This document shows, piece after piece, positions 18,051 through 31,057 of a DNA stretch of 64,000 bases. The stretch's first letter is position 1, and each line of letters opens with the position of its first letter. The position numbers and the translations under genes were made by a program. Source of the stretch: Muricea muricata (Eukaryota > Cnidaria > Anthozoa > Malacalcyonacea > Plexauridae); assembly GCA_963855995.1 (NCBI GenBank), contig OY979717.1:7110290-7174289 (forward strand), written 5' to 3'. The notes below the pieces were generated by a model, which searched no databases, was not told the DNA's origin, and was given only the letters and a program-made list of their open reading frames with translations.

Positions 18051-18900
18051 ATTAATGGAAACTTTATTTATTGATTATTAGATGATATACAACTACAATG
18101 ATAAACCTCGCTTTACAGGTAGCTTATCAATGTCTACATGAATTGACGACATATTACAATATATAATTTCAACAATTATTTTAAAATGATTATATTGTCA
18201 TTAGTTTTGGGTTATCCCACTCCTTGTTTCGTCAACAAAATATATAATACGACGTTCGTATACACATATTCACTATTTTCTTTTTTATATATTTACTATA
18301 CTGAGCATCAAGTTTTAGACTTCTCAGCATTTCGTCAAAATTTTCCGCTGATCGACTGAAAACTCCAAGTGTACTCAAGGACAAGTTAATAAACTTGACT
18401 TTATCATAATTTGTTTTCTGCTCTTCAATTAAATCAAGGTACTTTTGGCGTATGCGATTGGCGTTGACTTGTAGATTGGATTCAAATCCGACAGTGAGCT
18501 CGAGAATGTATAGGCGAATGTTCTCAATCGCTAGAAGTAGATCAGGTCGTAAATTGTCACCGGTGAGAACAGATGGGTTCACAAAGCCAGGTATATCAAC
18601 GTAAAGTCTGGAATTTTGTACAGCAGTAAGAGTGGATGCGAGGAAATTTAAAACAGAATCGTGTCGCCATGTAAACCGGCCTTCATTTAAGTATGTCTCA
18701 CATCCAGCAACGATATGAAGCAGCGTTTCGGGTGAGGAGCAAAAAGAGCAATCAGATGTCAACGATAGTCCCCATTTTGATAGGTTTTTTCTTGTCGGAA
18801 GTGTGTTATTGATATACCGGATAGTGAAGTTAAAGATGTTTTTCGGAAGTTTGCTTTGAACGGATGACCATAAGACCATAATAATAATAATAATAATATG
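18051..18900 (-). pseudogene. R4/Dong-like copy E1 (5'-truncated, subfamily I)
   Basis: The minus-strand frame 18879-18232 encodes the C-terminal third: the region before the CSFCSSPETLLHIVAGC knuckle, FTWRHDSVLNF, RPDLLL with the endonuclease glutamate in LELTVGFE, and the conserved C-terminus. The 3' UTR with its hairpin (18099-18128) and the AATAAAGTTTCCATTA end lie at the low-coordinate side. At the 5' junction the phrase gaccata is repeated three times inside the TAA repeat, a slippage-like scar. It is nearly identical to E5 and A. The frame itself is open over 215 codons. Confidence 0.88.
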
Positions 18901-18903
18901 ACC

Positions 18904-19068
18904 ATAATAATAATAATAATAATAATAATAATAATAATAATAATAATAATAATAATAATAATAATAATAATAATAATAATAATAATAATAATAATAATAA
19001 TAATAATAATAATAATAATAATAATAATAATAATAATAATAATAATAATAATAATAATAATAATAATA
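18904..19068. repeat. (TAA)n microsatellite, tail of copy E2
   Basis: About 55 nearly pure ATA units between E1's truncated 5' end and E2's 3' end. It is read on the minus strand as the ATT tail of E2. Confidence 0.97.
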
Positions 19069-29081: not shown

Positions 29082-29358
29082 AATAATAATAATAATAATA
29101 ATAATAATAATAATAATAATAATAATAATAATAATAATAATAATAATAATAATAATAATAATAATAATAATAATAATAATAATAATAATAATAATAATAT
29201 TAATAATATTAATAATATTAATAATAATAATAATAATAATAATAATAATAATAATAATAATAATAATAATAATAATAATAATAATAATAATAATAATAAT
29301 AATAATAATAATAATAATAATAATAATAATAATAATAATAATAATAATAATAATAATA
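29082..29358. repeat. (TAA)n microsatellite, tail of copy E6
   Basis: About 90 ATA units with a cluster of TTAATA variants near 29195-29220. Confidence 0.97.
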
Positions 29359-30916
29359 ATGGAAACTTTATTAAAATATGTTATACAGATATATCTACAA
29401 TTATAAATCTCACAACTAAGGTAATTTATAATTGTCTACTTGAACCTGATAAAAAGTTATAGTTTGAAAATGTATTTCTAAATCGCTAGTAATTCTGGAG
29501 TTGACCTGTCCTTATTTCTACAACAGAATATATAATATGTTGATCTGATGGCGATGGACATAATTTTCCCAATGCAGTATTTCCTGTGTCTGTCATCAAA
29601 ACGTAGATCGTTTAACATATCCAAAAAGGCATCGCATTCTTTTGAGAAAACTCCTAAAGAACTTATCGATAAATTTACAAATTTAACGAATTTATAATGT
29701 TTCTTTTGTTCTCTAATGAGATCTTTGTATCTTTCTCTTTTCCGGATAACATTTGCTTGGAGGTTAGATTCATAACCAACAGAGAGTTCGAGAATATATA
29801 GAATAATCACTTGAGATGGACAGTAGAAGGTCTGGGCGGAACGTGTCACTAGATATAATTGAAGGGCTTTTATATCCAGGAAGGTCAACAAATTGGTTAG
29901 AGTTGCTGACAGGTTGTAGCGTTTTTGCAATAAAATTCAAAACGGAATCATGTCTCCATGTAAACCGCGGTAGATACGATTGACATCCGGCAACTACATG
30001 TAGAAGGGTTTCAGGCTTTAGACAGAAGGAACAATCAGAGTTTGATGTTATTCCCCATTTAGTAAGGTTTCTACGGGTGGGAAGGGAGTTATTAATGTAA
30101 CGGATGGTAAAGTTATAGATGTTCTTTGGAAGGTTTGATTGAGATTTGGACCATAAACTGTTTAGTTTTTTCAATGAAAATTTAATAACGTTTGAGAAGA
30201 AAGAGCCCTGGACCACGAGGTGATTTTGAAGTTTATTCTCTTGTTGTGAGTTAAAGCTTTTAAGGACTTCCTTTGTCGTTGTGTAGACGTCGTATTGGAT
30301 ATTTTTGTTATCAGACGTTGCTTTCCAGAGATTCTTTATCGATTCATTTGGGGACGTTTTCAAGGCGTTCCGAGCAACTGTTTGACACTGTGCAAATTTT
30401 GCAGATGGAGGGTAGATGTTGAGACCAAACTTGCTGGTGGTAAGGTATACGTTACTTAAAGTTCCTGACACTGGTATTTCAAGCCATTTCCGTACGTATT
30501 TATTCACTACTGAATCTATGTTTTCTGTGACCCAGGTTTTTGATAAGGTCGCTACAGTCAAGTGCCAAGAAAGTTTTGGGAGTAGATAACGACTATAAAG
30601 TAGAAGTTTGTTTTTTGGGTGGAGAGGTTTAAGGTCAATGTCTGACATGATATCTTCAAGGAGAGTTGTAAGTTCTTCTTTATGCTTTTTTTCCGACATA
30701 TCAAAATCAAAGTATTTGCCTAAGTATCGAAACGACTCTCCAATTTCAGTGGTAGGTATCAATTTATTGCTAATTAGTAGTTTTGGTAAATACTGAACGG
30801 ATTTTGTTAGAGTTTTTCTAATTCCAAATGTACTGCACTTGTCCACTCTGATGATCATGTCGGACCATTGGCACCAGATTGAAAAGCGGTTTAAAAGATG
30901 TTGATTTTCCGCGCTT
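29359..30916 (-). pseudogene. R4/Dong-like copy E6 (5'-truncated)
   Basis: The frame 30858-29770 begins just after the FADD region (the truncation falls at codons for ENQHLLNRF near 30910) and covers the RT C-terminus, the knuckle CSFCLKPETLLHVVAGC, and RPDLLL. A frame break near 29800 leads to the frame 29930-29478 with the rest of the endonuclease and C-terminus. The 3' UTR hairpin is perfect over 12 bp (29397-29408 with 29424-29435). Confidence 0.9.
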
Positions 30917-31057
30917 TAATAATAATAATAATAATAATAATAATAATAATAATAATAATAATAATAATAATAATAATAATAATAATAATAATAATAATAA
31001 TAATAATAATAATAATAATAATAATAATAATAATAATAATAATAATAACAACAATAA
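30917..31057. repeat. (TAA)n tract at the Gypsy side of the nested block
   Basis: About 45 TAA units ending in TAACAACAATAA directly before Gypsy sequence at 31058. No Dong 3' end adjoins it on the right. It fits the distal part of the CR1-like tail that received the Dong-like copies (inference). Confidence 0.9.

Follow-up and report, generated by a model that had tools for sequence, protein, structure and literature searches.

Dong of Bombyx mori and the Dong-like elements of the R4 clade are retrotransposons that combine a reverse transcriptase (RT) and an R2-like endonuclease with a TAA or microsatellite target. Insertion of Dong-like elements in (TAA)n is described for cnidarians in passages of PMC7998251, DongAg and DongBg are placed in microsatellites in part of PMC3636483, and an excerpt of PMC3774820 reports a Dong construct with seven TAA repeats ahead of the element. 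Here we describe elements with the same target and enzymes in 64,000 nucleotides of the anthozoan Muricea muricata (contig OY979717.1, positions 7,110,290 to 7,174,289 of the forward strand; this whole stretch is called the window and positions are counted from its first letter). Neither arrays nor mixed lineages appear in those parts of the Dong-like descriptions that were found; both are present here.

In their arrangement the copies most closely resemble MoTeR of Magnaporthe oryzae (PMC7367193) and the FoTeRs of Fusarium (PMC12857005) which, as far as the portions of these two papers go, also have a simple-repeat target and form arrays in which repeat tracts separate full-length and truncated copies. 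The target of MoTeR and FoTeRs is the telomere repeat made by telomerase at chromosome ends, whereas here it consists of dispersed TAA repeats with no known maker. R2 provides the closest solved proteins for both the RT and the C-terminal part but inserts at a single site of 28S ribosomal DNA. Simple repeats are also found at the ends of other long interspersed nuclear elements (LINEs). The I element is said in an excerpt of PMC3747384 to end natively in TAA, as does an element of the window that is referred to as LINE-X, and lepidopteran RTE tails give microsatellite families according to part of PMC2887409, which is a likeness to the TAA tail of LINE-X. Use of such a microsatellite tail as a landing site by another retrotransposon was not found described in the portions of the literature seen; it is seen here.

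We consider it highly probable that the R4/Dong-like elements of this genome target (TAA)n and insert also into the tails of earlier copies, building arrays in which all copies lie on the same strand.

Two arrays of mixed lineages

Six R4/Dong-like copies, E1 to E6, lie on the minus strand of 18051-30916 and are joined by TAA tracts of about 35 to 376 bp, just as an earlier note on this DNA had claimed. They are E1 (18051-18877, 5′-truncated, of the lineage of E5 and copy A, with its tail toward LINE-X), E2 (19068-22552, full length, its reading frame interrupted by an in-frame stop near 21085), E3 (22623-24145, 5′-truncated, with an open C-terminal frame covering zf-RVT and the R2-like endonuclease region), E4 (24519-27108, 5′-truncated, RT domain complete), E5 (27141-29080, 5′-truncated, of the lineage of E1 and A) and E6 (29358-30916, 5′-truncated). 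The tracts occupy 18878-19067 (E1/E2, including filler that repeats the first bases of E1), 22553-22622 (E2/E3), 24146-24518 (E3/E4), 27109-27140 (E4/E5) and 29081-29357 (E5/E6). Next to the 5′ end of E6 come (TAA)47 (30917-31057), about ten bases and then Gypsy sequence. When E2 is compared by eye with E4 and copy B, about nine additional bases that include the in-frame stop are seen at 21064-21090.

The plus strand of the window carries four further copies: A (5′ piece 5464-6875; 3′ piece 11897-12332, then (ATT)5), B (5′ piece 12347-14903; 3′ piece 36686-36785), C (36860-37229), separated from B by an ATT tract (36786-36859), and D (37250-37381), which is 3′ untranslated region (UTR) only and has a short ATT run after it. 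The earlier note had ascribed to this array the same structure as that of E1-E6. The four copies are indeed present, but the 5′ end of A is without ATT, and A and B are each split. Beside this array a CAGACGGATCATCCGTC-like sequence is seen by eye to recur densely in inverted copies (37460-37815).

The 3′ motif AATAAAGTTTCCATT has ten matches in the window with at most two mismatches, six from E1-E6 and four from A-D, where shuffles lead one to expect 0.71. Pure TAA/ATT runs of 12 bp or longer number 18; they were merged by eye into ten tracts, every one of which touches a copy: nine do so at a 3′ end, while the tract at 30917-31057 meets the 5′ end of E6. ATT repeats adjoin nine of the ten 5′ ends, and eight of the ten are next to the tail of another copy, so that the proposal that each tail touches the truncated 5′ end of another copy is largely correct; the exceptions are the irregular 3′ tail of E1 (ATTAATTATTATTAC), which meets LINE-X rather than another copy, and E2, which is untruncated. 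The chance of nine out of ten independent 5′ ends falling in or near the tract-adjacent 2% of the window is about 5e-15, with the caveat that ends in one array are not independent.

The copies of the window are not one recent family. Close relationship is limited to E1, E5 and A, which are mutually 94-98% identical (96.5% for E1 and E5); other pairs sharing more than 150 columns show 54-71% identity, mostly 58-69% within E1-E6; D and the 3′ piece of B, which are too short, were left out of this comparison. At least six lineages in the window use the same (TAA)n target, and the single family of the earlier note has to be replaced by these lineages, whose founding sites take in ordinary or compound microsatellites as well as another LINE's TAA tail. 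The nearest proteins differ by copy among the 120 listed: P0002 for E4 (98%), P0106 for E3 (99%), P0017 for E6 (91%), P0026 for E2 (84%), P0107 for E5 (85%) and P0052 for B (85%), and a further search gave closer relatives of E5 (P0196, 93%; P0219, 98% over 73%). Homologues with a named source come mostly from the octocoral Paramuricea clavata and in one case from Dendronephthya gigantea; no relatives were found by protein or by 3′-end pattern in viral_contigs and genome_contigs.

On E2 coordinates the copies begin at about 2641 (E1), 1 (E2), 1939 (E3), 898 (E4), 1539 (E5) and 1885 (E6). E2 is full length: over the first 36 bases it does not differ from the copy in locus L046, and its 5′ leader equals that of the copy in L053. 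Within one array both the lineages and the truncation points of the copies differ.

Target sites in the genome

Searches of the 453-Mb assembly (74 contigs) gave 266 matches to the 3′ end followed by (ATT)4 and none to the reversed pattern. Positions were listed for the first 100 of the 266, and neighbour statistics refer to the 89 sites on contig C1 among the matches listed. A neighbour within 10 kb is present at 44 of the 89, against a random mean of 1.29 (1000 draws, largest 8). Adjacent C1 pairs have the same strand in 29/29 cases within 10 kb and in 34/35 within 20 kb; at a limit of 8 kb the contig holds 46 single sites, seven pairs, seven triples and one array of eight, none of which is of mixed strand. 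Near 36224700 of C1 (the tile of L026-L028 and L052) an N run lies between two ATT tracts of one array, and such arrays are probably under-assembled.

The earlier note had suggested mapping copies through the genome, and this was carried out for 5′ ends on a sample composed of the first 30 C1 sites by coordinate, all outside the window. The ends were placed by protein matches, most then being read by eye (that of #5 was deduced from the coding start); #6 was masked and 29 were scored. Sense (ATT)n or the tail of another copy is found at 27 of the 29, in some cases with up to about 20 intervening bases, or at 26 of 28 when #19 and #20, which are 98-99% identical with flanks included, are counted as one segmental-duplication event. 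Fourteen of the 29 have the tail of another copy as their 5′ neighbour (13 events; #1, 2, 7, 8, 11, 14, 15, 17, 19, 20, 23, 24, 26 and 29), a count outside which stand the uncertain #12 (divergent tail) and #25 (assembly gap between). Control positions were taken from the sampled stretches wherever no copy lies; 8165 of 111265 (7.3%) are in or at most 25 bp from a sense tract, and this is a rough upper figure, some stretches being counted two or three times and copy-adjacent tracts being included. Three more junctions in L074, which is part of the array of eight, are each flush with a tract. These data support the proposals that (TAA)n is the target and that copies land in the tails of earlier ones. 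The outcomes that would have spoken against them, copies lying mostly outside TAA or a tandem duplication with matching truncation points, did not appear: 27/29 ends are in TAA or a tail, and truncation points differ. The 29 tail tracts measured in the sample range from 12 to 408 bp, the minimum of 12 bp being set by the selection, and their median is 69 bp.

Arrays can begin at several kinds of repeat. Single copies in TAA with ordinary flanks are found at #0, #4 and #5. Copies also occupy repeats of ordinary or compound type, for instance after TTGTTA or ATC/ATT units (#4, #5); in #19-21 the 5′ flank is another repeat, common to all three. At L048, L049 and L050, two of which are segmental duplicates, an unnamed repeat CAATGCAGAACAAATATTAAACCCATTTATCATAAGTTATT stands 5′ of the ATT tract and is perhaps a further repeat whose ATT end is used as a target.

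The TAA tail of LINE-X belongs to these sites. R4-like copies are flush with LINE-X TAA tails at two loci, in the window and at C1:108603480, where the LINE-X 3′ end leads through an unbroken TAA tract to the tail of an R4-like copy (about 85 bp, opposite strand) whose 5′ end likewise adjoins ATT. The LINE-X 3′ motif has 95 genomic matches, and nine of the 19 3′ ends fetched finish in 12 bp or more of (TAA); among these nine, L059 and L060 resemble copies of each other. The median of these nine runs is 19 bp, versus 69 bp for the R4-like tails of the sample, a difference that might come from repeats added at insertion but that slippage would explain as well. A listed R4 tail lies within 300 bp of one of the 28 C1 LINE-X sites, and at least one such case arose in 64 of 5000 random draws; since this proximity count is low, the argument for use of LINE-X tails rests on the flush junctions and not on the count. 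In L058 the TAA run of a LINE-X copy is 113 bp or longer, and the 211 bases fetched there contain no R4 tail.

Order of insertion and rival explanations

The locus is nested. A Gypsy-like element on the minus strand interrupts the 3′UTR of copy B, with ATAT at either side, and its long terminal repeats (LTRs; 14904-15087 and 36500-36685) are 93.4% identical (183 columns, 10 mismatches, 2 gaps). This element is itself in two parts, one (31058-36685) with integrase H2C2 and upstream genes and the other (14904-16061), beyond the insert, with the integrase C-terminal domain, so that the H2C2 domain (31087-31734) and p58_C (15140-15631) of the split integrase gene are in halves 15 kb apart. When the flanks are joined at 16061/31058 one frame continues, with 1 stop in 100 codons versus 6 and 3 in the other frames; a join moved by three bases scores equally, which settles the frame and not the exact base. 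The insert in the integrase gene consists of LINE-X (16062-18050, plus strand, 5′-truncated, with RVT_1 and the 3′ end TTGTAATAA toward the tail of E1) and then the E array on the minus strand. It follows from this nesting that B was in place before the Gypsy-like element, and the latter before LINE-X and E1-E6; the likely order of insertion is copy B, the Gypsy-like element into B, LINE-X into the integrase gene and E1-E6 at the TAA tail of LINE-X. The (TAA)47 at 30917-31057 is probably the far side of that tail; the bases past it may belong to LINE-X, although the interrupted LINE-X tail aligns with them only weakly. Copy A is split by an RT-bearing element of about 5 kb (6876-11896, plus strand; RVT_1, with RVT_3 slightly under the cut-off), which we take to be DIRS-like; the halves of A, once joined, match E1 and E5, with 2-3 bases ambiguous at the join.

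The mechanism that we propose takes its nicking, priming and 5′ truncation steps from R2. One strand of (TAA)n would be nicked and synthesis would be primed on the AUU tail of the RNA, as target-primed reverse transcription. Any TAA tract could be used: a microsatellite, whether ordinary or compound, the TAA in which an unrelated LINE natively ends, or the ATT at the end of an earlier copy, whatever its lineage. Insertion would always leave ATT on the sense strand of the element, with the 5′ end commonly truncated, and, with TAA at the 3′ end and usually also at the 5′ end of a copy, a site once hit would remain a target and head-to-tail arrays would grow on one strand. Such a nick, AUU priming and 5′ truncation would give sense ATT on both sides, varied truncation and same-strand arrays. 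The target, the strand rule, the arrays, the mix of lineages and the nesting are matters of observation; the enzymatic steps and one insertion per copy are inferred. New repeat units may be added at insertion, or insertion may just split a tract, which later replication slippage could lengthen.

Several points weigh against this interpretation. The 5′ ends of C1 sites #13 and #16 lie against ordinary non-TAA sequence, and that of copy A is not in TAA, its flank being AATAAATTTATTATTC... The 15-base 3′ motif taken without tail requirement gives 450 matches (27 reversed), which implies that a good part of the 3′ ends are without exact (ATT)4. The C1 sample was selected by its ATT tail, so that it bears on the unselected 5′ side while the 3′ side is outside its reach, and 5′-end sampling is confined to C1. 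Finally, the enzymatic steps and the placement in the R4 clade are putative.

An array might instead have been laid down at once, the RT leaving one RNA at a 5′ end that is often incomplete and continuing on the ATT tail of a further RNA, and so on through the array, as template jumping by the R2 reverse transcriptase would allow. The copies of any array are all on one strand, as this would have it, and the 5′ junction of E1 repeats ATT units and the bases with which E1 starts, which fits template switching. One-event arrays are nevertheless improbable in our opinion: they would need RNAs of several lineages, 58-69% identical in E1-E6, in one particle, the locus was hit at least twice (B before and E1-E6 after the Gypsy-like element), and the existence of single copies in TAA means that insertion into TAA occurs regardless.

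There is also a small chance that TAA tracts already bearing copies elsewhere were brought together by recombination or break-induced replication. Some MoTeR arrays extend by break-induced replication at inter-copy repeat tracts, according to a portion of PMC7367193, and a segmental duplicate found here includes both a copy and its flanks (#19/#20); on the other hand, the E array has flanks consistent with one split integrase gene, and single copies also have their 5′ ends in TAA. As exchange within TAA tracts leaves little trace, single junctions may be recombinant. It is far less probable that the elements have no target preference, simply making ATT tails that slippage lengthens and inserting anywhere: the 12-408 bp range of tail tracts and the ends of #13, #16 (2/29) and copy A in other sequence would suit this, but 27/29 5′ ends adjoin ATT oriented like the tail. 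Tandem duplication of one copy, to which the 96.5% identity of E1 and E5 might point, was rejected as hardly conceivable, given the differing truncation points and the identities of mostly 58-69% among E1-E6.

Features of the elements and their shared target

A 3′UTR stem-loop (27181-27221, minus strand, in E5) is found in all ten window copies. In it 95.5% of cells pair and 15 cells show changes on both sides, neither value being reached in any of 500 shuffles; slid versions of the stem pair just 27-48%. Against covariation in this stem, 87 of 500 shuffles reached the number of both-side-changed pairs (4) and 496 that of further pair types (10), and the stem sequences form two groups, so that independent change events may be few. 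Full-length copies start with a hairpin of 36-42 bases (22517-22552, minus strand, in E2, immediately after ATT). Eight distinct 5′ ends of this kind were found in a search that demanded the outer arms, whose conservation is thus by choice; seven come after clear ATT or the tail of another copy and one (L024) after merely ATT-like sequence. Six were tested for folding, four giving z of -3.1 to -5.4 versus shuffles and two -0.6 and -1.2. A hepatitis delta virus (HDV)-like ribozyme is reported at the 5′ end of Dong and R4 in part of PMC3774820, whereas none was found in the present elements, which have a plain hairpin: Rfam gave no match at 22300-22640 (E up to 1) and none in the window at gathering score, and an HDV-like ribozyme at the 5′ end of E2 was accordingly rejected.

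The RT matches RVT_1 and its best PDB relatives are R2 (E 8e-34, versus 3e-20 for LINE-1). The C-terminal part of E3 (212-440) matches R2 only (E 1.9e-11) and zf-RVT was found; RPDLL, read by eye, is presumably the endonuclease catalytic motif. The elements thus appear to be non-LTR retrotransposons with R2-like RT and endonuclease of the R4/Dong kind, a name suggested by the target together with the R2-like proteins. In the N-terminal part of E2 there is no Pfam match; a motif search gave CCHC zinc-finger-like motifs in the N-termini of E2 and of 15/265 homologous proteins, whereas Dong-like N-termini are described without zinc fingers in passages of PMC7998251. An AlphaFold2 model of the full-length relative P0021 (35-row alignment) had a mean predicted local distance difference test score (pLDDT) of 53.5, with residues 1-136 below 50, and was not used. 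As a proxy for ATT lying ahead of truncated copies, runs of I, L or Y were sought in homologous proteins. They occur near the N-terminus in four of the 265 listed and elsewhere in one, and are suggestive of in-frame ATT repeats; the proxy is weak because gene calls usually begin within the copy. In P0032, P0086, P0118 and P0250 such runs lie near the N-terminus ahead of a truncated R4-like body.

The (TAA)n target of Dong-like elements was already known. No mixed-lineage TAA arrays and no use of another LINE's tail were found in the titles, abstract openings and passages of the literature consulted, which is weak evidence that these two are new. We tentatively suggest, with doubt still prevailing, a shared-target economy in which one LINE would write (TAA)n tails and at least six R4/Dong-like lineages would use them and then each other's; this guild would largely make, lengthen and keep the TAA microsatellites of the genome, and same-strand arrays would record serial insertion. 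A retrotransposon product that doubles as target means that insertion sites are renewed and not exhausted, and the tail of one LINE becomes tied to the niche of another element. The arrays therefore bear on the question of whether retrotransposons make microsatellites or merely settle there.
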